Notes: generated by a model from the letters alone, not told the origin. 35,727 nt of DNA from a virus (IMGVR_UViG_3300037507_002122:1-35727), one strand, 5' to 3'. Positions 5,140-25,983 are shown, numbered from the stretch's first letter. Translations and numbers: made by a program.

Positions 5140-5336
5140 GCGCAACCGAGTGGGGCTTCGTGTTCGGCCTCTGGACCGGGCTTGTAGTGGGCTGCGTGGC
5201 TGCGCTGCTGTGGGCAAGGTCGAGGGAGCGGATTGCCAGGCACAAGCGCAAGGTCGCTGCGGCTGCACGGGCTGCGAGGTCTTCGGCGCGGGTTGATGAC
5301 GCGCAGTTGAATCGGTGGCTGAAGGGGGAATTGTGA
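5136..5336 (+). CDS. Small membrane protein with basic tail
   Basis: A 66-residue protein with one membrane segment (about residues 6-27, WGFVFGLWTGLVVGCVAALLW), followed by an Arg/Lys/Ala-rich cytoplasmic helix. The positive-inside rule puts the C-terminus in the cytoplasm. It overlaps its neighbours by ATGA and TGATG. No family recognised. Confidence 0.6.
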   Translation: MSATEWGFVFGLWTGLVVGCVAALLWARSRERIARHKRKVAAAARAARSSARVDDAQLNRWLKGEL

Positions 5337-5758
5337 TGGGTGCCATGCAACGCAACAAAGGCGCAGCAGCGGAGCGGGAACTGTTCAACTTGCTGTCTGA
5401 GCATCTCGGCTTCGTGGTTCGCCGAAACGTGGATCAGGCGCGCAAGGGCGGGGCAGATGGCATTGAAATCCCCGGCTGGGCGATTGAGTGCAAGCGGCAC
5501 GAAACCGGGTTCAGGTCGGAATGGTGGGAGCAGGCGAAGGCGCAGGGCAATCATGACGGACGGATGCCGGCGCTGTGTTACCGGGCCTCTCGCCAGCCGT
5601 GGCGGGTTAGGGTGCTGCTGCAGGATGTTTCCGTATGCCTAAGCAGCATGGCCAGCATGACGAACTCCTATGGGGGCGCGTGGGTCGAGATGGACTTGCT
5701 CACGTTTGCCATGATCGTGCGGGAGTCGTTGCCGGTAGCGAAACGGGAGGCGGCTTGA
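5336..5758 (+). CDS. PDDEXK endonuclease, Holliday-junction-resolvase-like
   Basis: A 140-residue protein with the opening pattern RNKGAAAERELFNLL, then R-N-VDQARKGGADGIEIPGWAIECKR. The Glu in AERE, the Asp in GGADG and the ExK in IECKR are the catalytic set of the PDDEXK fold as used by Hjc-type resolvases and related phage nucleases. It would cut branched DNA during late replication or before packaging. The start at ATG 5336 shares one base with the upstream TGA; an upstream in-frame ATG at 5315 lies within the previous gene. Confidence 0.75.
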   Translation: MGAMQRNKGAAAERELFNLLSEHLGFVVRRNVDQARKGGADGIEIPGWAIECKRHETGFRSEWWEQAKAQGNHDGRMPALCYRASRQPWRVRVLLQDVSVCLSSMASMTNSYGGAWVEMDLLTFAMIVRESLPVAKREAA

Positions 5759-5958
5759 ACTGGCCAACCCTCATCACTGAACTCCTACGCCTACGTCATC
5801 CCGACGGGCGCATGGTGTGGAACTGCGCCAGCATCGCACGGCACTGCGGCTGCACTCGCGCACGCATCGGGCAGTTGCGGCAACCGGGAACTGAACCGTC
5901 CTGGCATGTCGGCGAACGGCTCCGACAACTTCATGCTGCAAATGTAAAACACATTTGA
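5755..5958 (+). CDS. Small HTH DNA-binding protein at the early/late boundary
   Basis: A 67-residue protein starting at TTG in a TTGA overlap with the nuclease gene. Residues 24-50 (CASIARHCGCTRARIGQLRQPG) form a helix-turn-helix of the Cro/YdaS type. It is the last early gene, directly before dyad sequences and the late cluster, where lambdoid phages place Q. It is too small for Q, but it could control late transcription. This is inference from position only. Confidence 0.6.
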   Translation: MNWPTLITELLRLRHPDGRMVWNCASIARHCGCTRARIGQLRQPGTEPSWHVGERLRQLHAANVKHI

Positions 5959-6000
5959 CGCAGCATTCCGTATAAGGACTTTATCCCGTGGGATAGGTCC
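5940..6000 (+). promoter_or_regulatory. Two dyads between early and late genes
   Basis: AAATGT-N5-ACATTT (5940-5956) covers the stop codon of the HTH gene. GGAC-TTTATCCC-GT-GGGATA-GGTCC (5976-6000) forms a stem of about ten pairs with one bulge, just before the late cluster. A TATAAG (5971-5976) between them resembles a -10 box, but no -35 stands at a usual distance. No T-run follows, so this is not a clear terminator. It may be an operator plus a regulated late promoter or a leader structure. Confidence 0.4.
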
Positions 6001-6004
6001 GTCT

Positions 6005-6211
6005 ATGGCTACGTTTGACGAAGTGCGCAGTTCCCTGGATTCGCTCGAATCCGTGCGCACTCGGGCCGAAGATATCGTTACCCAAATCAGGGCGCTCGAA
6101 GCGCAGATAGACCGGCTCAATGCCGACCTCGATGCTCTGCGCCCGGCTGTCGTTTCGGCTGAACAGGCGTTCAGGACGAAGGCGGCGGCTTTGGACATTA
6201 CGAAGTCGTGA
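6005..6211 (+). CDS. Small coiled-coil protein before terminase
   Basis: A 68-residue protein that is almost entirely a heptad-like helix (VRSSLDSLESVRTRAEDIV ... LEAQIDRLNADLDALRP). A small coiled coil directly before terS could be a packaging accessory or late regulator. No family is recognised. Shine-Dalgarno weak. Confidence 0.6.
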   Translation: MATFDEVRSSLDSLESVRTRAEDIVTQIRALEAQIDRLNADLDALRPAVVSAEQAFRTKAAALDITKS

Positions 6212-6507
6212 CGATGTCGCAAGACTTTAATAGCGAAAAAAAGTCTCGTATGGGGCGGCCGCCTGGCGCTCCGAACAAGACGACTGCGTTAGCTCGCGAG
6301 GCTATTGCTCGCTTCGTCGATGGCAATGCCGACAAGTTGCAGGGCTGGCTTGAAGAGATTGCCCGTGAAGAGGGCGCCAAGACGGCGTTTAACTGCTTCA
6401 TGGACGTAGTCGAGTACCACGTGCCCAAGCTTCAGCGCACCGAACTGACGGGCAAGGACGGCGGCGCTATCGAGGTGAAGGCCACGCAGCAGGACGAGAA
6501 GCTGTGA
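6208..6507 (+). CDS. terS: Terminase small subunit
   Basis: A 99-residue protein directly before the large terminase and overlapping it by GTGA. It opens with a basic RMGRPPGAPNKTT segment typical of small terminase-like phage proteins, followed by a helical region. Small terminases recognise the packaging site on concatemeric DNA and pass it to the large subunit. The GTG at 6208 overlaps the upstream stop; the ATG at 6214, two codons in, is an equal alternative. The identification rests mainly on position and the N-terminal motif. Confidence 0.7.
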   Translation: MTMSQDFNSEKKSRMGRPPGAPNKTTALAREAIARFVDGNADKLQGWLEEIAREEGAKTAFNCFMDVVEYHVPKLQRTELTGKDGGAIEVKATQQDEKL

Positions 6508-7868
6508 CGTTCGCCCTTACTCAGAAGCAACTACGCGCGCAAGAGGTCCTGACAGGGCCTGCCACGCATCTGATGCTCTTCGGCGGCTCTCGCAGTGGCA
6601 AGACGTTCCTGCTCGTGCGTAACGTCGTTATGCGGGCTCTCAAGGCGGCTAAGTCTCGGCATGCCATCTTCCGTTTCGCCTTCGCGCACTGCAAAGCCAG
6701 CATTGTGCAGGAGACGTTCCCGAAGGTCATGGAACTGGCGTTCCCGGCTGTGCGGTATGAACTCAACCGCACCGACTGGATTGCGACGTTTCCGAACGGC
6801 TCGGAAATCTGGTTCGGCGGACTGGATGACAAAGAGCGCACCGAGAAGATTCTCGGCAAAGAGTTCGCCACGATCTACCTGAACGAGTGCTCGCAGATTC
6901 CGCAGTCCTCGCGCGATCTAGCCGTGACGCGCCTAGCGCAGTCTGTCACGCAGCGATTCGACGGGCGCGAAGCTCCCCTGCAGCCGCGCATGTATTACGA
7001 CTGCAACCCGCCTAGCAAAGCGCATTGGACCTATCGGCTGTTCGTCGAGAAACGCGACCCGGACAGCAAGCTGACACTGCAGCGGCCGGCAGACTACGAC
7101 TACTTTCAGATCAATCCGCAGGACAACGCGCAGAACCTGCCGGCTGGGTATTTGGAGACGCTGCAAGGGCTGTCGCCGCGACTGCAGAAGCGGTTCCTGC
7201 GTGGCGAGTTCGCAGACGCCACGCCGAATGCGCTGTTCTCCGATGAGGTCATCGACAAATGGCGGATTCTGGATGCCAAACTGCCCGACATGGTGCGTGT
7301 CGTCGTGGCGGTCGATCCCTCGGGCTCGGGTGACGTAGACAACGCGGATAACGATGCTATCGGGATTGCAGTCGTCGGGCTCGGCACCGATGGCAATGCG
7401 TACGTGCTTGAGGACTGCACCGTGAAAGCCGGTCCCGAAACCTGGGGCAAGGTATCCACAAGCGCATTCGAGCGGCATGACGCGGACGTAGTCGTGGGCG
7501 AGACGAACTACGGCGGCGACATGGTGCGCATGGTCGTGCAGGCTGCGCGCCCGCGCACGCCGTTCAAGAAGGTCACGGCATCCCGCGGCAAGGTCGTGCG
7601 CGCCGAGCCTATCTCGTCGCTGTATGAGCAGGGCAAGGTCCGCCACGTCGGCTACTTTCCCGAACTCGAGGACGAACTGTGCGCGTTCTCGACCGTGGGC
7701 TATCTCGGCGACAAGTCTCCGAACCGTGCTGACGCGGTCATCTGGGGCCTTACCGAACTGTTCCCGGGCGTGTTGAAGGGCGCGAAGGTCGAGAAGGCGA
7801 AGGAACTCGACGAGTACGGCAACCCGGTGGGCAAGAACTACATCGCGCCGATGGGGTGGATGGCATGA
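6504..7868 (+). CDS. terL: Terminase large subunit
   Basis: A 454-residue packaging ATPase-nuclease. Walker A is GGSRSGKT (residues 27-34) and Walker B is ATIYLNE with Glu128 as catalytic carboxylate. The C-terminal RNase H-like nuclease domain starts with VVVAVDPSGSG (Asp271 as a metal ligand) and ends with NRADAVIWGLTEL. This is the full length of the family. It pumps DNA into the prohead through the portal and cuts it. P22-like neighbours imply headful packaging, which fits the circular map. The start is GTG in a GTGA overlap. Confidence 0.93.
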   Translation: MTFALTQKQLRAQEVLTGPATHLMLFGGSRSGKTFLLVRNVVMRALKAAKSRHAIFRFAFAHCKASIVQETFPKVMELAFPAVRYELNRTDWIATFPNGSEIWFGGLDDKERTEKILGKEFATIYLNECSQIPQSSRDLAVTRLAQSVTQRFDGREAPLQPRMYYDCNPPSKAHWTYRLFVEKRDPDSKLTLQRPADYDYFQINPQDNAQNLPAGYLETLQGLSPRLQKRFLRGEFADATPNALFSDEVIDKWRILDAKLPDMVRVVVAVDPSGSGDVDNADNDAIGIAVVGLGTDGNAYVLEDCTVKAGPETWGKVSTSAFERHDADVVVGETNYGGDMVRMVVQAARPRTPFKKVTASRGKVVRAEPISSLYEQGKVRHVGYFPELEDELCAFSTVGYLGDKSPNRADAVIWGLTELFPGVLKGAKVEKAKELDEYGNPVGKNYIAPMGWMA

Positions 7869-8185
7869 CGCCGCGCAACCTGACTCTCGGCCCTGCCTCC
7901 TGTTACGTCGGGCACGCGGACATCGGCCTGCGTGCCGATCTGGCGGACAGTCTTCGCGAAGTCACTAGCGTGCATGTGCCGGAGTCCGAGCGGCGCAAGG
8001 GTTGGGGCACGGCGCTGATGCACTACTTGACGAGCGCAGCCGATCAGCATGCGGTGGCGCTGCTCGTGGAGGTCAAGTCCGAAGGCGAGATGACGAGCGA
8101 CCAGCTCGAAGCGTTCTACGCGCGTCATGGCTTCGTGCGCTTTCAGGCCGAGCCGGAAGTGCTGATGGTTCGGGTGCCGCAATGA
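7865..8185 (+). CDS. GNAT-family acetyltransferase
   Basis: A 106-residue protein with the acetyl-CoA binding pattern VPESERRKGWGTALMHYL (R-x-G-x-G/A loop followed by helix alpha-3) and a C-terminal FYARHGFVRF strand, standard in GNAT enzymes. It joins terL and portal by ATGA overlaps. An acetyltransferase between terminase and portal is seen in some podophages, but the substrate is not known. It is about two thirds of normal GNAT length, so it may be a compact form. Confidence 0.8.
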   Translation: MTPRNLTLGPASCYVGHADIGLRADLADSLREVTSVHVPESERRKGWGTALMHYLTSAADQHAVALLVEVKSEGEMTSDQLEAFYARHGFVRFQAEPEVLMVRVPQ

Positions 8186-10272
8186 ACGACGACACCATCG
8201 ACGCGGACGACGGCAAGCTCGCATACGACAAGGACGGAATCCTTGCCGAATTGCGCAAGCGCGTGCAGTGGGCGGTGGACTTCGATGCCGATACTCGTTC
8301 CGAAGCCTTGGAGGATTTGCGCTTCGTGGCCGGGCAGCAGTGGCCCGATGCGTGGCGACGCACGCGGGAGTTGGAAGCACGGCCGTGCCTCACGATTAAC
8401 AAACTGCCTGCGTTTATCCACCAGATCACGAACGATCAGCGGCAGAACAAGCCGTCGATAAAGATTCATCCCGTCGATGACAACGCGGACGTTGAGACTG
8501 CGCAGATCATCCAGGGCTTGATCCGGCATATCGAGTACAGCAGCAATGCCGATTTTTGCTATGACAGCGCAACGGCGAACGCTGTGCAGATCGGCTTCGG
8601 GTACTTCCGGCTCGTCACGGAATACTGCGACGAAACTTCCTTTGACCAGGACATCAAGTTCAAGAGGATTCGCAACCCGTTTACGGTCTACTGCGGGCCG
8701 CATCTGGAGCCCGACGGCTCCGACATGCTCTGGTGTGTCATCAGCGAAGAAGTGCCGCGCGACGAGTTCAAGCGCGAATACCCGAAGGCGAACGCATCCG
8801 ACTCGGCGAACTGGCCGACTGGTCCCGGCGATGCAAACGTGCAATGGCTGTCCGTCGATTCCGTGCGCGTGGCCGAGTACTACCGGATCGAACTGAAGCC
8901 GGCCACGCTGTGCCTGATGGCTGACGGTACGACGGGCTACAAAGACGAGATGCCGAACTATGACCCGGCTTTCTGCGTCAAGGAACGTCCGACGCATAAG
9001 CGCGTGGTTATGTGGCGCAAGTGCACGGGTTACGACGTGCTCGAAGAGCGCGAGATCCCGGGCCGCTTCATCCCCGTTTTCCCGGTCTACGGCGATGAGA
9101 TTGACCTAGACGGCAAGGTTATCCGTAGCGGCGTTGTGCGGTTCGCGAAGGACCCGCAGAGGGCCTATAACTACTGGCTCACGTCGGCCACGGAAGAGGT
9201 TGCACTGCGCCCGAAGACGCCGTTCATCATGGCCGAAGGGCAGGCAGAGGATTACGAGGATCAGTGGTCGCAGGCTAACAATCGGTCCTTCGCTTATCTG
9301 ACGTACAAGCCCACGACGGTTGACGGCATCCTCGTTCCGCCTCCGCAGCGTTCACAGCCGGCCGACATTCCGAGCGGCATGCTCGCAATGGCGATGCACG
9401 CTAACGACAACATCAAGGCGACAACCGGCATTTTCGATGCGTCGCTCGGTGCGCGTGGCAATGAGACTAGCGGGCGCGCGATTCTTGCGAGACAGCGGGA
9501 AGGCGATGTCGCGAACTATCACTACGTGGACAACCTGTCGCGCGCCATTCGGCATGCCGGGCGCGTCATCGTCTCGTGGATTCCGAAGATTTACGACACA
9601 CAGCGTGTCGTGCGGATCATGGGCGAAGACGAATCGCTAAAGTTCGAGACGGTAAACAAGGTCGAGATGAAGCACGAACTCGACGAGTTCACGCAACAAA
9701 TCCAGACCATTGAAAACGTGCTGAACGATGTTCGCGTCGGCACGTATGACGTTACGGTAACGACTGGCCCGGCCTACTCGACGATGCGGCAGGAAGCGGC
9801 CCAGGCCATGGTGGAATTCGGGCAGTCCTGGCCGAAGCTCATGGACATTGCCGGCGACAAGGTCGTCAAGGCAATGGACTGGCCCGGCGCCGAGGAGATT
9901 GCCGAGCGGATCAAGAAAACCATTCCGCCCGAACTCACGCGCGAGAAGGACGAAGAAGAAGAGGACCTGCCTCCGCAGGTTGTACAGCAGATCGAGCAGG
10001 CGACGCAATACATCGAGGTCCTGCAGCGCGAGAACCAGATGCTGAAAGCCGAAGCGACGCAGAAGGCCGAGGATCGCAGGCTGGAGAAGTACAAGATTGA
10101 CGTAGACGCGACCACGAAGGTCGTCGTCGAGGAAATGAAGGCACAAATGCAGCCGCTCCAAGACTTGGGCGGTCGCATCCAGCAAATCGAAGCGGCGCTC
10201 GGTCAACTCGCCGATGCGCTTGTTCCCGCTCCCGTGATGGGAACCGGATTTGAACAAGGACCGATGCAATGA
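8182..10272 (+). CDS. Portal protein (P22 gp1 type)
   Basis: A 696-residue protein, the size of P22 gp1 (about 725). The N-terminal region (ALEDLRFVAGQQWPD, INKLPAFIHQITNDQRQNKPSIKIHP) carries the hallmarks of the P22-like portal family. Residues from about 585 on are Glu-rich and coiled (KDEEEEDLPPQVVQQIEQ ... ENQMLKAEATQKAEDRRLEKY), like the C-terminal barrel. Twelve copies form the ring through which DNA enters and leaves the head. It overlaps the GNAT gene and the next gene by ATGA. Start ATG 8182 chosen over an in-frame upstream ATG at 8002 inside the GNAT gene. Confidence 0.9.
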   Translation: MNDDTIDADDGKLAYDKDGILAELRKRVQWAVDFDADTRSEALEDLRFVAGQQWPDAWRRTRELEARPCLTINKLPAFIHQITNDQRQNKPSIKIHPVDDNADVETAQIIQGLIRHIEYSSNADFCYDSATANAVQIGFGYFRLVTEYCDETSFDQDIKFKRIRNPFTVYCGPHLEPDGSDMLWCVISEEVPRDEFKREYPKANASDSANWPTGPGDANVQWLSVDSVRVAEYYRIELKPATLCLMADGTTGYKDEMPNYDPAFCVKERPTHKRVVMWRKCTGYDVLEEREIPGRFIPVFPVYGDEIDLDGKVIRSGVVRFAKDPQRAYNYWLTSATEEVALRPKTPFIMAEGQAEDYEDQWSQANNRSFAYLTYKPTTVDGILVPPPQRSQPADIPSGMLAMAMHANDNIKATTGIFDASLGARGNETSGRAILARQREGDVANYHYVDNLSRAIRHAGRVIVSWIPKIYDTQRVVRIMGEDESLKFETVNKVEMKHELDEFTQQIQTIENVLNDVRVGTYDVTVTTGPAYSTMRQEAAQAMVEFGQSWPKLMDIAGDKVVKAMDWPGAEEIAERIKKTIPPELTREKDEEEEDLPPQVVQQIEQATQYIEVLQRENQMLKAEATQKAEDRRLEKYKIDVDATTKVVVEEMKAQMQPLQDLGGRIQQIEAALGQLADALVPAPVMGTGFEQGPMQ

Positions 10273-12245
10273 CCGTCAGACTTTTGCGCCCGTTTAACGG
10301 GTTCCCCGCCAATGCCGTCGTAGAACTGGACCGAGCGACAGAGGCGGCGCTTGTCTCGCAATTGGCGGCTTCGTCTAATTTGACAAACGGGAGCACTTAT
10401 ATCCCGAATGCGCCGTTTTCTGTGGAATCGGCGCCAGCAAAAACACTTGCTGCGGAACTGTTAGGGGCAAATCCGGCAAGTGGGGCCGCGCAAAATAGCA
10501 ATGCTATTCAGTCCGCACTAAACGCCAATGCAATGGTGTCTTTGTACACGCCGGGTGTGTACGAAATACAAGGGGACACGTTTACAACGCGGCCCGATGC
10601 GATGTTGTTGCTAGGGCCTAACGTCTACTTTTCAGTAAACGGACAAATCACAAGACTTAACAGCCTGGGCGCGGCGGTCGTGTATGCGGCTGACATCGAT
10701 GACAAATGGCGCCCAAGAGCAGAGGATGCGCTGCAGCGGCCTATCTCAATGAACGACATTTACTTCGAGGGAATGCCGTTTGATCTGCTGAATATTCCAA
10801 GTCCGTACTTTGATGGTACGGATGAGTCTCGATCGGTCGTGCATCCGAGCACAGTCGTCATTCCGAACAAACTAAACGGATACAAATACTGGCTTGCACT
10901 CACGCCTTATCCGTCTTCGGATTCTGCCCGCGAAAATCCATGCGTATTCTGTAGCAATGATCTAGATTCGTGGATTGTCCCGCCCGGCGCTGTAAATCCA
11001 ATTGTGGACAAGCCAACAACTGGCCCGACGGACTACAACGCTGATGTTCATTTGTATTGGCACACGGATGGGTACTTGTATCTAATGTATCGCAGGCGCT
11101 TGACTTCTAGTTCTACCAATCAACTTATGTGTATGCGATCCAACGATGGAAAAACGTGGAGCGCGCCTGCCGTCTTGCTTACTGGCAGTACAGCAAGTCA
11201 AGATTTTGGCAGTCCCAGTTTTTGGTTTAACGGAACGCAGTGGGTAATCATTACGCACAATCTGGACGGGGTCGGGTTCCCGGTTCAACGATGGGCAAAG
11301 GCGGGCGATCTTATTACAAGTTGGAGCGCGGTGGTCCCGACAACGGTTACTCCAACGCACCCGGATTCCCTGACGTGGTGGCATTCGTCTTTGCATCGTC
11401 TTGAAGGCGGAAGAGTGCTTGCAATCGTTCAAGACAACAATTCGGGCGGCGGGTCGTTGTGGATGTGGCAAAGCGACACGGACGGAGCAAGCTTTAGCAT
11501 TCGTCGCCTAAACAGGAGCAATCGAAACTATCGATCCTCGTTGATTGTTGAGCAGAATAAAGCCTGGGCTTACATTGGTTACATATCAAACAAGGGGGCG
11601 CCTAACTGGAGAATTGCGTTGCAGTCTCTGCAGATGAACAGAAAAGAGACGCTTCGGACAGATGCTATTGCAATTGCGCAAAGTCAGTTCTCGGTCAGCG
11701 CGCAAGATAGGCCGTCTGTTGTTGCACACGCGGACCCGTTCACGGGTGGTGCTGCAGCGCTCACGTCGCCTTGGACACAAGTGGATGCAAACACGATCAA
11801 CCGTGATGGTTCGGGCTCCGCTACCAATCTAAACACGAACAACTGTCGGGCGTGGGTAGAAGTGGGCGCCAGTGATATGTGCGTTCAAGTGCGCATGGCT
11901 GCGCTTCCGGCCAGCGGGCAAGGCTGGCTAATGTTTAGGTTTGTGGACGCAAACAATTATTGGCGCGTTGGGATGAACGCGCTAACTAGCGTTCTGTTTC
12001 AAAACATTGTAAGCGGCAGCGTGGTGGTTAATCAGACAATTTCGTTTTTGCCATCGCCGGCAACGCTGCCGCAATGGTTGCGCGTGGAATGTGACGGCCA
12101 AAACATCGATGTGTATTGGCGCGGGATGCTGATTCATTCCGTCCAATCAAGCACGCATATTGGCGGAACTAAGGCCGGATTGCAGGCGTCATCTGCGCTT
12201 GGTGTTTTGTTTGATGACTTTGTTGCATATGGGTTGAACAGTTAA
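10269..12245 (+). CDS. Inserted beta-propeller/lectin protein with a capsid-module N-terminus
   Basis: A 658-residue protein placed between portal and scaffold, where P22-like phages usually have nothing. Residues 1-38 (MTVRLLRPFNGFPA ... TEAALVSQ) resemble the first 38 residues of the small decoration-type protein at 14448. Residues of about 150-480 look like a beta-propeller of the sialidase/GH43 kind, with repeated Asp-box-like turns (SNDLDSW near 228, SNDGKTW near 289, SDTDGASF near 400). Residues from about 495 on read as a jelly-roll lectin-like domain ending LGVLFDDFVAYGL. Base use is unlike its neighbours: 11101-11160 has 24 G/C of 60, against 40 of 60 at 9781-9840 in portal. This suggests recent acquisition of a glycan-binding or glycan-cutting module. 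Catalytic residues cannot be assigned with confidence. A tailspike carried in an odd place is the alternative. Confidence 0.65.
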   Translation: MTVRLLRPFNGFPANAVVELDRATEAALVSQLAASSNLTNGSTYIPNAPFSVESAPAKTLAAELLGANPASGAAQNSNAIQSALNANAMVSLYTPGVYEIQGDTFTTRPDAMLLLGPNVYFSVNGQITRLNSLGAAVVYAADIDDKWRPRAEDALQRPISMNDIYFEGMPFDLLNIPSPYFDGTDESRSVVHPSTVVIPNKLNGYKYWLALTPYPSSDSARENPCVFCSNDLDSWIVPPGAVNPIVDKPTTGPTDYNADVHLYWHTDGYLYLMYRRRLTSSSTNQLMCMRSNDGKTWSAPAVLLTGSTASQDFGSPSFWFNGTQWVIITHNLDGVGFPVQRWAKAGDLITSWSAVVPTTVTPTHPDSLTWWHSSLHRLEGGRVLAIVQDNNSGGGSLWMWQSDTDGASFSIRRLNRSNRNYRSSLIVEQNKAWAYIGYISNKGAPNWRIALQSLQMNRKETLRTDAIAIAQSQFSVSAQDRPSVVAHADPFTGGAAALTSPWTQVDANTINRDGSGSATNLNTNNCRAWVEVGASDMCVQVRMAALPASGQGWLMFRFVDANNYWRVGMNALTSVLFQNIVSGSVVVNQTISFLPSPATLPQWLRVECDGQNIDVYWRGMLIHSVQSSTHIGGTKAGLQASSALGVLFDDFVAYGLNS

Positions 12246-12347: not shown

Positions 12348-13175
12348 ATGGAAGAAACCAGCTTAGGCGGCGTGGTTGCGGAAGAACCGCATCCGCTCGC
12401 CGAACTGATGGAGCAGCAACCCGCGGCCGAGCCTGAACAGGCAGAGGAAGCGGAGCAGGAAGAGAAGGAAGAGAAGCCGGCGAAGGTCTACTCGCAGGAG
12501 GAGGTGGATCGCATTGTGCGAAAGTCCAAGCGCAATGCGGCGTATCTCGCGAGGAAAGAGGCCGAAGCGGAACTCTACAAGCGTATGTCGGAAGAACGCG
12601 CTGCACCCGTGCAGAAGGCGGAGCCGACAGACGCCGCACCGCAGCGCGATGCATTCGAGACGTATGAGGAATACATCGAAGCGCGTGCGGAATGGAAGGC
12701 GGAACAGAAGCTCGAAAAGCGGCTCGCCGAGTTTGAAACGAGGCGCAGTCAAGACTTGCAGCAAGCAAGCGTTCGGGAACAGGCGGAGCGGTTTGAGAAG
12801 ACCGCTCACGAACTGGCGGCCACGGTGCCGGACATTGTCCCGACGATTGAAGAGTTCTTAGTAGAAGCACCTTTGTCGCAAGTGATGCGGCAAATGATCC
12901 TAGAAAGTGAAAGCGGTGCGTTGCTCACGTACCACCTAGCTAAAAACCCTGCGGAAGCAAGTCGTATCAGTCAGCTATCCCCGGTGCAGCAAGTGCGCGC
13001 ACTGGTGCGGATTGAAGCCGATCTGGCGACGACTAAGGCGCCGCGCGTGAGCAAGGCACCGGACCCAATCAAGCCTATTGGCAGCGGCTCCTCTACGTCT
13101 CCTGATCCCGCGAAGATGTCTATGCAGGATTACACGGAGTGGCGTCGCAAGCAAAGGCCGAACTGGGCCCGGTAA
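12348..13175 (+). CDS. Scaffolding protein
   Basis: A 275-residue, very acidic and Glu/Lys-rich helical protein directly before the coat gene, as P22 gp8 is. It has long coiled segments (EEAEQEEKEEKPAKVYSQEE; YEEYIEARAEWKAEQKLEK) and a basic C-terminus (YTEWRRKQRPNWAR), the region that binds coat in P22 scaffold. It directs prohead assembly and then leaves. GGAGG lies eight bases upstream of ATG 12348. The 102 bases before it (12246-12347) hold only this leader and a small GCGAG...CTCGC dyad. Confidence 0.85.
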   Translation: MEETSLGGVVAEEPHPLAELMEQQPAAEPEQAEEAEQEEKEEKPAKVYSQEEVDRIVRKSKRNAAYLARKEAEAELYKRMSEERAAPVQKAEPTDAAPQRDAFETYEEYIEARAEWKAEQKLEKRLAEFETRRSQDLQQASVREQAERFEKTAHELAATVPDIVPTIEEFLVEAPLSQVMRQMILESESGALLTYHLAKNPAEASRISQLSPVQQVRALVRIEADLATTKAPRVSKAPDPIKPIGSGSSTSPDPAKMSMQDYTEWRRKQRPNWAR

Positions 13176-13205: not shown

Positions 13206-14435
13206 GTGTCTAATTCATTCGCAACTACCAGTGTAGTCGCTAAGGAATCCCTTGCGATCCTGGAGAACATGCTCACTTTTGCCAAGGGCGTGAACCGCTC
13301 TTGGGAAAGTGAATTCACTTCGAACATGGCCCGCGGTTATGCGCCTGGGCAGACTATCAACATCAAGCGGCCGCCTCGGTATACGTGGCGCGCGGGTCGC
13401 GTGGCAGTTCCGCAGGCGACCATTCAAACCACTGTGCCTTTGACGCTGACGCAGGGCGGCACGGACCTGAACTTCAACTCTCAGGAACGCACTCTCAGCA
13501 TTGCGCAGATGGAACCCATGCTCATGGGTGCCATGGCGACTGTTGCTAACGAAATCGACCGGCAAGGGCTCGACCTTGCGCGCACGGCTTCGTATAACGC
13601 GATTCTGTCGCCGGCCGGTACTGGCGCGGTTCCGACCACGCAAGCGCAAGCGCTGCAGTTCTTCACGAACGTGGGCCAGCGTCTCGACGAGATGGCGGCG
13701 CCTCGTGATCGGCAGCGGTCCTTTGTCATGAATCCGGCGCTTAACGCGGGCATGATTCAAGGTCTCGCCGGGCTGTTCAACTCGCAGTCCAAGGTCACGG
13801 AACAGTATGGCAGCGGCATGGTCGTCGATGCTCTCGGCTTTAACGTGAGCATGGATCAGAACGTCGTGAACCATACGCCGGGCACGCAGCCGGCGACGGC
13901 GGCTAACGCGGTGAACGGTGCCGGGCAATCCGGTTCCACCATCACTGTGAACGGTGCGGCGATCACGGGCACGATCACCCGTGGCAGCAAGATCACCTTC
14001 GCCAACGTGTTTGCGGTTAACCCGCAGTCTCGCCAGTCCACCGGCGTGCTTGCGCAGTTCACCGTGACGGCGGACGTGGCTGCCGCGGCTACGTCGATTC
14101 CTATCGCGCCCGCTCTGACGCCTTCCGGCGCCTTCCAGAACGTGACGGCTTCTCCGGCCAACAACGCCGCGCTAAACGTGTTCCAAGGCAACCTGGCTGC
14201 GTACGCTTGTAACGTCGCCTATCACCGTGATGCCTTCACGCTGGCAACTGTGCCGCTCTACGCGCCGCCTTCGGGCAAGGGCGTCATCGGCGTGGCGCAA
14301 GAGTCGCACCGCGGCATCAATATGAAGGTCACCGAGTTTTACGACGGTGTAAACGACAACTACATCATGCGTTTTGACATCTTGTTCGGATGGGCGGCAA
14401 CGTACCCCGAACTCGCTGTCATCGCTGCGGTGTAA
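13206..14435 (+). CDS. Major capsid (coat) protein, P22 gp5-like
   Basis: A 409-residue protein, close to the 430 of P22 coat. The opening (LAILENMLTFAKGVNRSWESEF ... GQTINIKRPPRYTWRAG) is characteristic of the P22-like coat family with the HK97 fold. Residues 225-325 (AANAVNGAGQSGSTITVNG ... TRGSKITFANVFAVNPQS) correspond to the inserted I-domain of P22 coat. It follows scaffold by 30 bp. The start is GTG 13206 after AAGGG; a short ACCC...GGGT dyad lies just upstream. Confidence 0.92.
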   Translation: MSNSFATTSVVAKESLAILENMLTFAKGVNRSWESEFTSNMARGYAPGQTINIKRPPRYTWRAGRVAVPQATIQTTVPLTLTQGGTDLNFNSQERTLSIAQMEPMLMGAMATVANEIDRQGLDLARTASYNAILSPAGTGAVPTTQAQALQFFTNVGQRLDEMAAPRDRQRSFVMNPALNAGMIQGLAGLFNSQSKVTEQYGSGMVVDALGFNVSMDQNVVNHTPGTQPATAANAVNGAGQSGSTITVNGAAITGTITRGSKITFANVFAVNPQSRQSTGVLAQFTVTADVAAAATSIPIAPALTPSGAFQNVTASPANNAALNVFQGNLAAYACNVAYHRDAFTLATVPLYAPPSGKGVIGVAQESHRGINMKVTEFYDGVNDNYIMRFDILFGWAATYPELAVIAAV

Positions 14436-14447
14436 GGAGGCACGAAC

Positions 14448-14840
14448 ATGACTGTTCTTCTCAACCAGGCATATTCGGGCTACCCGGCAGGGCAGATTTG
14501 CGAGTTTCCGGCGTCTACGGAAGCGGCAATGATCGCCCAAGGTATCGCGGTCAACAGCACGGCGGTACCGACTACGGGTGCGGCCACTGCGAACGCAATG
14601 AAGGGCTCCTGCGCTATCGCGGCCGGCGCGTCGTCTGTCGTCATCACCAATCCGTACGTCACCGCAAGTAGCTTCGTAATGGCCGTCGTGGCGCAGACCA
14701 CGGCGGACACCACCTTGCTGCGTGTGGAGCGTGTTGTGCCTGCTGCGGGATCGTTCACGATCTACGGCACGGCCAACGCGACTGCGACCACGCGGATTGA
14801 CTGGTGCGTTATCAATAACTCGCCCACTACGCCGGACTAA
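14448..14840 (+). CDS. Small head decoration/fibre-type protein
   Basis: A 130-residue protein with a strong ribosome site (AAGGAGG) right after the coat gene, implying high expression. Residues 1-38 (MTVLLNQAYSGYPA ... TEAAMIAQ) resemble the N-terminus of the 658-residue protein at 10269, with about 14 identities in 34. Residues of about 45-130 are Ala/Thr/Val-rich and beta-type, like a small decoration domain. Genes of this kind after the coat gene are common in phages and are thought to bind the capsid. I infer that the first 38 residues are a capsid-binding module. Confidence 0.65.
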   Translation: MTVLLNQAYSGYPAGQICEFPASTEAAMIAQGIAVNSTAVPTTGAATANAMKGSCAIAAGASSVVITNPYVTASSFVMAVVAQTTADTTLLRVERVVPAAGSFTIYGTANATATTRIDWCVINNSPTTPD

Positions 14841-17957: not shown

Positions 17958-19402
17958 TGTCTATCACGATCGGGGCGCCGCTAGACGCAAACGGTAATCT
18001 TGAGGTCAATCTCCCGCTGATCGCCTCGCAGGCTGGAAACGTCGCGATCCATAGCGAAAACGACTCTGGAACGTATACCGGGGTTCGCACGCTGAAAGCG
18101 CCGGAAACTTCGATTGACTTCCGGCTTCGCGTTGGCATTGACACGGTGCTGTTCACCGATTCGTTCAATGCGGCGGCGCAAAATACGGCGCTGTGGTCGT
18201 ACACGTTCAACACGTTGACAGCGGCACAGCCTGGCGCGGGTACGGTTAACTTCTCGGTTGTGCAGGGAACGACGAACGCGCATGGCGCATTCATGCGGAC
18301 GTTCCAATACTTCCCGTTGATCGGGACGGCGCCTCTGTCGGTCGAGTTCACCTTCGGGCAGTTCACGGCGGCGCTCGTCACCAACGAAGTGTGGCTGATG
18401 GGCCTCGGGCTTCCGACGGCAGCGACGACGGAACCGACCGACGGCGTATGGCTTCGACTGACTACCGCGGGCTTGATTGGCGAACTGCGCTTCAACGGCG
18501 TGACGACGCAAACGGGCGTGCTGCGGACGCTGGCTCAGATCACGACTAGCGACCTGTACAAAGCTGTAATTGTCATCGGTGAGCAGTCGGTCGAATACTG
18601 GCTAGATGATGGGCTGTTGGGTACGCAGATCATGCCGGCTTCGAACGGGGCGCCGTTCATTACGGGATCATTGCCAGCGTACATGATGAAGTACAACACG
18701 GGCGCGGTGGCCAATACGAACACCATGCGCGTGTCGGATGTGACGGTGTCTCTGCTTGATCTGCATACGTCTAAGCCGTGGTCGTATCAGATGGCTACGC
18801 AAGGGCTGATGGCGTATCAGGGCCAGAACGGCGGCACGATGGGTACGACGGCGCTTTATCCGAACGCTGCGGCGGCGACGGTCGTTACAGGTGCGGCGCT
18901 GTCACAGACCGCAGCCATTGCCACGGGCCTCGGCGGGCAGGCTGGCATTGTGGCCGCGGTGGCTGGCATCGATGGCCTCATCACGGCGTTTCAGAACCCC
19001 ACGGGCGGCATCAACCAGTCGCCGCGGAATCTAGTCATCACGGGCGTGCGCATTGACGCCGTGAACATCGGCGCGGCGGTCGCGACGACGGCAAGCATTC
19101 TTTCATGGTCGCTGGCATTCGGTGCCACGGGCGCGACTATTCCATCACTGGCACAAGGCGAGTCTGCATCGTTTGCGACCGGCACCGCGAAGGCGTGGAG
19201 GCGTATCCCGCTCGGGCTGCATTCGTGGCTTGTGGGCGCGGCGATTGGCGCGCCGGCAGAGGCAATTGATATCGACTTTGACGCACCCGTGGTCGTACAT
19301 CCCGGGCAGTGGGTGGCCAGCGTTGCAAAGTTCATCGTCGGCACTGCGACGGCTTCGCAGGTTATCTGGTGCAGCATAAATTTTCGTGCTTACTACGAAT
19401 GA
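17957..19402 (+). CDS. Structural protein, likely tail fibre or receptor-binding
   Basis: A 481-residue, beta-rich protein with low charge and many Thr/Ala/Gly residues, the usual look of virion surface proteins. Residues 55-245 resemble a jelly-roll (FTDSFNAAAQN ... LSVEFTFGQF ... SVEYWLDDGLLG), and the C-terminal 150 residues are another beta domain. It shares one base of its ATG with the upstream stop. It probably forms part of the tail with the preceding fibre-like protein. No named family is assigned. Confidence 0.65.
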   Translation: MSITIGAPLDANGNLEVNLPLIASQAGNVAIHSENDSGTYTGVRTLKAPETSIDFRLRVGIDTVLFTDSFNAAAQNTALWSYTFNTLTAAQPGAGTVNFSVVQGTTNAHGAFMRTFQYFPLIGTAPLSVEFTFGQFTAALVTNEVWLMGLGLPTAATTEPTDGVWLRLTTAGLIGELRFNGVTTQTGVLRTLAQITTSDLYKAVIVIGEQSVEYWLDDGLLGTQIMPASNGAPFITGSLPAYMMKYNTGAVANTNTMRVSDVTVSLLDLHTSKPWSYQMATQGLMAYQGQNGGTMGTTALYPNAAAATVVTGAALSQTAAIATGLGGQAGIVAAVAGIDGLITAFQNPTGGINQSPRNLVITGVRIDAVNIGAAVATTASILSWSLAFGATGATIPSLAQGESASFATGTAKAWRRIPLGLHSWLVGAAIGAPAEAIDIDFDAPVVVHPGQWVASVAKFIVGTATASQVIWCSINFRAYYE

Positions 19403-19766
19403 ACGCCACGAAGCATTGCAGGCCGCCTGGGAGTCCTGCCGCGACCGATGGCCGATTGGCTATGACGAGTTCGCCCAAGCGATGCAGGGCTGGAGCGTGG
19501 AGCCTGTGCGGGTCGATGGGCGGATTGTGGGAGCGGTGCTGATGCGTGGCGCTGAAGTGCATGCCTGCATCCGTCCCGAGGGCTTCGGGCGCTGGCTCTC
19601 GCGGCGTGTGCTGCGTTCCACGCTCGCGCGGGTAGTGGCAGAGCATGGGCGGGCGGAAACGACTGTAACGACCGGAAACGAAGCCGGAGAAGCATTTGTG
19701 CGGCGCCTGGGATTCGTCGAGTCCGGGCGCGCTAACGGAGTAACGAGGTACACCTATGGGCATTGA
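19386..19766 (+). CDS. GNAT-like acetyltransferase in the tail/ejection cluster
   Basis: A 126-residue protein with GNAT C-terminal features: a TTVTTGNEAGEAFVRRLGF helix-strand unit followed by a GVTRYTYG strand. The usual acetyl-CoA loop is poorly conserved (RRVLRSTLARVV), as in the phage DUF2824-type proteins found near tail genes in podophages. The role in the virion or host is unknown. The start is GTG 19386, overlapping the previous gene by 17 bases. The 3' end overlaps the next gene by 11 bases. Confidence 0.65.
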   Translation: MLTTNERHEALQAAWESCRDRWPIGYDEFAQAMQGWSVEPVRVDGRIVGAVLMRGAEVHACIRPEGFGRWLSRRVLRSTLARVVAEHGRAETTVTTGNEAGEAFVRRLGFVESGRANGVTRYTYGH

Positions 19767-24261: not shown

Positions 24262-25983
24262 ATGCCTTTCTATCCGTTAATTACCGAAAAGCAAACATTT
24301 TTCGACGCCAACAGCAACGAACTGAGCGGCGGTAAGCTTTTCATCTACCAAGCCAACACGACGACGAAAGTTACGACGTTCGCCGAGACGGATGGACTAG
24401 CAGCCAATTCTAACCCCATTGTCCTGAACAGCCGGGGCGAGGTGCCGAATGGGCTCTATGTAGCGGGCGGCATTCAATACAAACTTGTCCTTGCGCCTAG
24501 CACGGACACGGACCCGCCGACTTCCCCGATCTGGACGAGAGACGACCTAAACCCGTTGGGCTACGTCTCCCCGACGGCGCTCTCAGAGTGGCAGAGCAGC
24601 GGCAGCACGGCAACGCAGACGGGCGTTAACACGTTCACTGTCTCGGGCGATGCTCGAGGCGTGTTCCAGGTCGGCCGGCGCGTGCGGGCTGTCATCACGG
24701 CTGCGCCCCAGCTCACCTATGGAACCATCTCGGTTTCCTCGTTCGGTGCGGGCGTGACGACGGTCACGCTGTCGCCGCTGAGCACGAACCTTGACGCAGG
24801 GCTTACCGGCACGATTCCGGATGTGGGGCTGCTGTCGGCGACCGAGCCTAGCGTGCCGGTGCTGACTGATGCAGTCTGGCAGCTTGCCGACAACCTGGAC
24901 CGGACGAAAAAGTATCAGAAAGAACTGTCCACGATCACGACCGGGCAGACTCGCACGCGCACGGCGTACGACAAGAATGGCTATGAGACGGTGGCGAATG
25001 ATATCTGGGGCCTGCATAACGTCGCGCTAGGCGCGAGCGTCGCAGGCAACAACCTGACGCTATCTCTGCTGACGAATGCCGGCGCGACGCCATCGGCCAG
25101 CGATCCGGCGTTCGTCGGGTTCCGCAGTGCGACCAGCACGAGCGGGGCGCCTAGCATCATCGCGGTAACTGGTGCGACTACGTTCACGGTCACGGCGGGC
25201 TCAACTCTCGGCTTTGCCAACGGCGAAGCGGGGCGCATCTGGGTGTGCGCGATCAACAACGCCGGCACTGTGGAACTCGCGGCGTTTCGCGCGTGGCAAA
25301 GAATTGCCGGGCCACCAGAACAAACCGGATGGTATGCCTTTAACGAACAGATTCTTTCAACGACGGCAGAGGGCACGGGCACTGCGGACTCGGCGCAGGT
25401 GCTGTACTCGGCCAGTGCGCGCGTAGGCGTGGCAATGCGTTATCTTGGCTATGTGGAGATTGTCTACGGTACGGCGGCGTGGTCTAACGCGCCCACGTTC
25501 GTGCAGACCAATCACAGCCGGATGCCGTTGCCGGGGGGCATCGTGCAGCGTCAGTATTTGTCGGATGGTGCGTATGCCACGGCTGTGGCGTCTATTCCGA
25601 ACGATGATTCAATCCCGCAAAGTGGCGAAGGTAGTACGTATTTAACTCTCGCCATCACGCCAACGTCAGCCTTAAACGTCATTGCTGCCGAAGCGCGCGG
25701 ACTGTTCACAACGAACGCGGCGGGCGAGTATCTGACGATGGCGCTGTTCAACGGCGGAACAGATGCGCTTGCCGCTTCTGTGTCGTCGCAAAACGGCGCG
25801 GACCCGCAGATGCAAACTCTGTACAACCAGAGGCAAGGCGGCACGGTTAGCCCGATCACGTACACAGTGCGCGCAGGTACGGCGAGCGTGGCGAACGCCA
25901 CCTATTTTAACGGTTGGGGCGCAGCACGACAGCGCGGCGGCGTGATGAACTCTTACATCCGGCTGGATGAAATCTTCGTATGA
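24262..25983 (+). CDS. Tailspike/tail fibre protein
   Basis: A 573-residue protein. Residues 1-95 (YPLITEKQTFFDAN, GGKLFIYQANT, IVLNSRGEVPNGLYV) form a head-binding domain of the kind that attaches podophage spikes to the tail hub. The remainder is beta-rich with Thr/Gly repeats and ends in a domain with a QNGADPQMQTLYN loop. No pectate-lyase or other catalytic pattern is obvious, so it may bind rather than cut surface sugars. Its location after the ejection genes matches P22 gene 9. Confidence 0.75.
   Translation: MPFYPLITEKQTFFDANSNELSGGKLFIYQANTTTKVTTFAETDGLAANSNPIVLNSRGEVPNGLYVAGGIQYKLVLAPSTDTDPPTSPIWTRDDLNPLGYVSPTALSEWQSSGSTATQTGVNTFTVSGDARGVFQVGRRVRAVITAAPQLTYGTISVSSFGAGVTTVTLSPLSTNLDAGLTGTIPDVGLLSATEPSVPVLTDAVWQLADNLDRTKKYQKELSTITTGQTRTRTAYDKNGYETVANDIWGLHNVALGASVAGNNLTLSLLTNAGATPSASDPAFVGFRSATSTSGAPSIIAVTGATTFTVTAGSTLGFANGEAGRIWVCAINNAGTVELAAFRAWQRIAGPPEQTGWYAFNEQILSTTAEGTGTADSAQVLYSASARVGVAMRYLGYVEIVYGTAAWSNAPTFVQTNHSRMPLPGGIVQRQYLSDGAYATAVASIPNDDSIPQSGEGSTYLTLAITPTSALNVIAAEARGLFTTNAAGEYLTMALFNGGTDALAASVSSQNGADPQMQTLYNQRQGGTVSPITYTVRAGTASVANATYFNGWGAARQRGGVMNSYIRLDEIFV

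Follow-up and report, generated by a model that had tools for sequence, protein, structure and literature searches.

A candidate capsid-display module common to a post-coat protein and a deacetylase-type propeller protein in a phage with a P22-type head

It is established that decoration proteins can bind host glycans (PMC7602432), and head fibres or adhesive decoration proteins have been described in phi29 (gp8.5), T4 (Hoc), T5 (pb10) and SPP1 (gp12) (PMC7602432, PMC11476376). These accessory capsid proteins combine a capsid-binding part with an exposed glycan- or host-binding part, and they bear Ig-like, helical or collagen-like parts. Tailspikes of the P22/Sf6/Pam1 type likewise combine a modular anchor with an exchangeable glycan-active body. 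Here we describe P0001, a phage protein of 658 residues that resembles both groups, its capsid binding being the part that we infer. Unlike gp8.5, Hoc, pb10 and gp12, P0001 and its relatives carry enzyme-type propellers, SGNH esterases or beta-helices on one short module, which they have in common with a constant post-coat protein. Compared with the tailspikes, the anchor is a different one, and the Pam1-type anchor of the same phage resides on another protein (positions 24262-25983). Our searches of the open-access literature brought up no description of a small constant module common to a post-coat protein and to exchangeable enzyme-type cargo.

The stretch of DNA analysed, hereafter the window, is the 35,727-nt viral record IMGVR_UViG_3300037507_002122:1-35727. 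It holds a head block of P22 type and, further downstream, a separate tailspike or fibre gene:

6504 to 7868: terminase of the P22-type head block
8182 to 10272, plus strand: P22-type portal (P22_portal, E 4e-193)
10269 to 12245, plus strand: P0001, 658 residues, ATG start; module, cap, propeller and LamG-like domain
12348 to 13175, plus strand: scaffolding protein (phrog_8865, E 2e-43)
13206 to 14435, plus strand: P22-type coat (P22_CoatProtein, E 3e-37)
14448 to 14840, plus strand: P0002, post-coat protein of 130 residues; anchor module and a domain of the K1-lyase C-terminal type
24262 to 25983, plus strand: separate tailspike or fibre, 573 residues, with a Pam1-type head-binding domain at residues 15-82 (PDB 7eeq, E 1.4e-4)

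The P0001 start shares 4 bases with the end of the portal gene, stop codon included, the P0002 gene lies directly 3′ of the coat gene, and the gp4-like and gp10-like connector genes come after P0002. Rhodoferax phage P26218 has overlapping portal and scaffold genes, with no gene in between, and two Manatee Spring phages pass from the portal to the scaffold/coat region without a large intervening gene, so that the P0001 gene is to be read as an insertion. The initial annotation had claimed that P0001 interrupts the portal-scaffold order, and both the profile matches of the flanking portal, scaffold and coat and the three comparison phages bear this out. Two short acetyltransferase-like ORFs (GNAT-type by eye) also lie inside the structural block of the window, one just upstream of the portal (7856-8185) and one upstream of the DNA-ejection gene (19386-19766). 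In four relatives, long and highly repetitive proteins are encoded by the gene or genes before the scaffold (L036:5189-6814, L022:5193-6329, L015:387-1391, L013:5876-6541), with repeats such as 'GALTGQGS' or 'GAAAAYSLTGNAGTL' and charged, partly similar C-terminal tails such as 'DFDIAYIAALMAVL'.

The gene had also been described as far more AT-rich than its neighbours. The two 60-base counts behind that statement (24/60 and 40/60 G/C) are exact but come from hand-picked windows, and gene-wide GC and GC3 were used here instead of this selective comparison. P0001 has a gene-wide GC of 52.1% against 58.8-61.7% in the adjoining genes, and a GC3 of 0.53-0.57 in its cargo against 0.66-0.78 in the neighbours. 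Both measures agree with the described AT-richness; this base composition suggests that the gene was recently acquired, and its acquisition from elsewhere is supported as probable.

The two module-bearing proteins of the window were divided as follows:

10269 to 10379, plus strand: N-terminal anchor module of P0001, residues 1-37 (E 1e-9 against a profile made solely of post-coat proteins; AF2 pLDDT about 90)
10440 to 10643, plus strand: putative capping segment of P0001, residues about 58-125, like the beginning of a beta-helix tailspike
10746 to 11636, plus strand: beta-propeller of the FpGalNAc-deacetylase family in P0001, residues about 160-456 (sequence, profile and fold matches)
11721 to 12233, plus strand: putative LamG/CBM-like beta-sandwich of P0001, residues about 485-655 (named from AF2 strands)
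14448 to 14561, plus strand: anchor module of P0002, residues 1-38 (homology to the P0001 start; AlphaFold model)
14595 to 14813, plus strand: tailspike C-terminal or K1-lyase_C-like domain of P0002, residues 50-122 (a weak match; resembles the C-termini of Sf6, Pam1 and K1 lyase)

The likeness between the first 38 residues of P0001 and P0002, on which the head-fibre idea had been founded, proved genuine. The two segments are 37% identical without gaps, and their local BLOSUM62 score is 71, while the maximum among 2000 shuffles was 43. A profile was then made from 25 post-coat proteins belonging to other phages; to avoid circularity, neither the window's own protein nor its near twin was included. 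Among the 705 six-frame ORFs in the window, this profile found exactly two, P0002 (E 1e-19) and P0001 (E 1e-9), the next ORF scoring 0.58. The predicted secondary structure of the segment matches as well, with a strand at 2-5, another at 17-18/19 and a helix at 22-30 in both AlphaFold models, which are not fully independent of each other since the P0001 alignment holds some module rows from post-coat proteins. The module shared by P0001 and the post-coat protein is therefore a case of real homology. Being short, it yields no resolvable tree. Neither the module nor P0001 as a whole receives a name from Pfam, PHROGs or NCBIfam, and comparison with solved capsid-binding domains detected no credible relative. 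A PDB match of the module to thermonuclease was judged to be chance, and a tblastn search of cultured phages with the 44-aa module returned only matches at E 8, too weak to count; one of these is a small protein directly after the major capsid gene of a Microcystis phage.

Relatives of P0002 that keep the module were found right behind a P22-type coat in some 30 independent contigs, even where the second domain has been exchanged. This domain is either K1-lyase_C-like or DUF4082-like, the latter in L073, L096, L098 and L099, where the assignment was made on Pfam scores below threshold or on resemblance by eye. A PDB match of P0002 to GAPDH was set aside as chance. When genome contigs were searched, the cargo-type module gave no match and the post-coat family gave one close relative (L165:6678-7049). 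Its contig is binned with a Gallionella MAG, a hint that this phage group may infect freshwater betaproteobacteria.

The module also heads proteins other than the post-coat one. The initial annotation had proposed a search of phage genomes for the module fused to other domains, and such fusions are numerous in related phages: 14 non-post-coat carriers occur in 12 genomes (the window, L009, L074, L093/L094, L014, L015, L022 twice, L027, L096, L098 twice, L099 and L121). Almost all relatives are metagenomic contigs, several of them duplicates that were merged in these counts, and the L027 carrier is cut by the contig end. The cargo is beta-helix-like by eye in L009 and L022, an SGNH hydrolase with CBM5/12 in L096 (Pfam E 5e-11 and 1e-5), SGNH-like by motif in L015, a body ending in a P0002-type domain in L074, and propeller plus LamG in the window and L121. 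All carriers sit between the portal and the gp10-like gene or, as in L121, in the scaffold/coat/connector block. The closest independent relative is L009, whose portal, coat and post-coat proteins are 95%, 93% and 93% identical to those of the window. The first 119 residues of its portal-scaffold gene product match P0001 at 48%, and the remainder is different and beta-helix-like; the same module and cap are thus followed by another body, and cargo has been exchanged in place. Two further candidates were not counted, namely a suggestive module-like start in L120 (E 1) and a match in L039 (ORF 5226-6620, residue 319) that follows an internal start after out-of-frame sequence. Between the gp4- and gp10-like genes of L014, the gene of a module protein is directly followed by one for a glycoside-hydrolase-like protein (8922-10220; TIM-barrel type, by eye). 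Another N-terminal segment of about 75 aa ('AGQSI...GPY..GA.V.L') is common to L041:9839-10468, where it heads a P0002-like C-terminal domain, and L118:1407-3428, where it heads a propeller-LamG protein; it is possibly another anchor family.

What P0001 carries behind the module begins with the capping segment ('GANP...NAIQSALNA...VSLYTPGVYEI'), which is bordered by low-confidence linkers on either side, contains an AF2 helix at 73-85 and has similar regions in L074 and L009. By sequence and by fold, the propeller belongs to the FpGalNAc-deacetylase-like family: it matches PDB 6n1a, the Flavonifractor plautii GalNAc deacetylase, with E 4e-10 as a single sequence and with E 1e-34 over 271 profile positions, and its best fold matches are 6n1b/6n1a (Foldseek E 1e-16). 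Residues H192, E222, D259, W371-H372 and Y421-R422 are invariant over six phage relatives, and the H, E, D, WH and YR positions are as in the F. plautii enzyme. The two proteins differ in their N- and C-terminal domains, and the HNCD of 6n1a, with its His three residues upstream of the conserved Asp, reads YNAD in P0001, with Tyr256 in place of the His. Active-site residues of the F. plautii enzyme are H97, D100 and H252; assuming a numbering offset of 20 residues, D100 and H252 would correspond to D259 and H372, and H97 to Tyr256. This alignment of the catalytic His97 with a Tyr may mean that activity has been lost or changed. Deacetylation of an amino sugar is plausible for this propeller, and binding alone is also possible. 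The C-terminal sandwich has homologues in L113-L121, L129 and L136 and recurs alongside the propeller in other phages. As to the sugar-binding or sugar-cutting domain initially proposed, the propeller and lectin-like domains are there, but given its membership of the F. plautii GalNAc-deacetylase family, the propeller would more likely deacetylate or bind amino-sugar glycans than act as a glycosidase.

The propeller is present at 56 viral loci, including a few copies of the window's own. On a tree built from 42 propellers, P0001 groups within a clade (SH-aLRT 96) of which nine of the ten members lie in a head or portal block, next to genes whose products were identified as portal, scaffold, major head or terminase proteins from several families unrelated to one another; the coat encoded in L116 is of P22 type and 61% identical to that of the window. 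With labels given by the analyst according to the adjacent genes, and 'other' entered for any locus that had not been looked at closely, the head-block label changes 3 times on this tree against 9.1 in shuffles, none of 500 shuffles being as low. In L114 and L115 the cargo is 85% identical over 506 aa and the first 40-50 residues are unrelated; the portals are of different families (phrog_12082 and phrog_332) and both genes occupy comparable portal-adjacent slots. This is the pattern expected of an anchor-plus-cargo design: constant cargo, changing N-terminus and constant position. The same propeller, 30-39% identical, also occurs in minor tail proteins of Microbacterium and Arthrobacter phages and in one protein of a Vibrio phage. 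These proteins have different N-termini and genes in tail blocks; P0001 belongs to another clade, made up mostly of head-block members.

Where, then, would the module place its cargo? Judging from gene order and homology, we think it rather likely that it is an anchor displaying exchangeable glycan-active cargo on the capsid. Both genes have the head-block position of a head fibre or decoration protein, P0002 behind the coat and P0001 between portal and scaffold. Position as sole proof of capsid display is ruled out by L010, where a protein of tailspike-like architecture is encoded between the post-coat gene and gp4. Also counting against capsid display, our searches turned up neither virion proteomics nor a structure for any module carrier, papers on the sole cultured relative found included, and the module resembled none of the solved capsid-binding domains. 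The case for docking on the coat rather than the neck is indirect and is drawn from the constant post-coat position in P22-type phages, the separate tailspike with its own anchor and the occurrence of several module proteins per genome.

Docking on the neck or collar, at the portal, gp4-like or gp10-like rings, would turn P0001 and its relatives into collar fibres, and this would suit the module carriers that adjoin the portal or lie between the gp4- and gp10-like genes (L014, L015, L022, L096 and L098), as well as the cargo-clade members next to portals of several unrelated families. We nevertheless regard it as unlikely: the commonest module carrier is encoded directly behind the coat, and the module proteins of one genome, up to three in L098, would compete for few sites; a coat lattice of hundreds of copies would accommodate them more readily than a neck ring. 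That P0001 is a tail spike or fibre on a second type of tail anchor is quite improbable. Elsewhere, related propellers carry the annotation of minor tail proteins, and P0002 has a C-terminal domain similar to those of tailspikes, but the Actinophage, Vibrio and Bacillus-type relatives carry other N-termini, and no known tail-anchor or P22-type tailspike head-binding (tail-hub) domain was found in P0001. The tailspike anchor sits instead on the 24262-25983 product, which is the probable tailspike of this phage although its remainder gave no database matches; the tail anchor of the phage thus differs from that of P0001. Highly improbable is an intracellular or secreted accessory (moron) whose N-terminal match reflects shared ancestry only. 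The base composition, suggestive of recent acquisition, and the proteomics search that found nothing would suit this reading. Against it, 14 proteins encoded in virion gene blocks have kept the module although their cargoes are unrelated, and no signal peptide is apparent on inspection of P0001.

On the capsid-display reading, the 38-residue module, also present on P0002, would dock P0001 on the particle, probably by binding the coat lattice, and the rest of P0001 would be imported cargo made of the cap, the propeller related to the F. plautii deacetylase and the LamG-like lectin domain. P0002 would then serve as the common decoration protein or short head fibre, with P0001 as a rarer substitute taking some of its sites; we propose this difference in abundance because the ribosome-binding site of P0001 is weaker than the strong one of P0002 and its start overlaps the portal stop. 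Particle-borne P0001 would bind amino-sugar polysaccharide on the host or in the biofilm and possibly N-deacetylate it. Virions would thereby be concentrated near cells, and the irreversible step would be left to the dedicated tailspike. A broader version, in which podophages generally swap lectins, esterases, deacetylase-like propellers and beta-helix domains on one coat-binding module that stays constant on the post-coat decoration protein, in parallel to the tailspike, is a tentative proposal to which we give slightly less than even weight. If true, phages would alter adhesion and matrix-penetrating activity via the capsid, independently of the receptor-binding tailspike, and the short module would be a predictive marker of capsid-displayed enzymes that are now annotated as hypothetical proteins.
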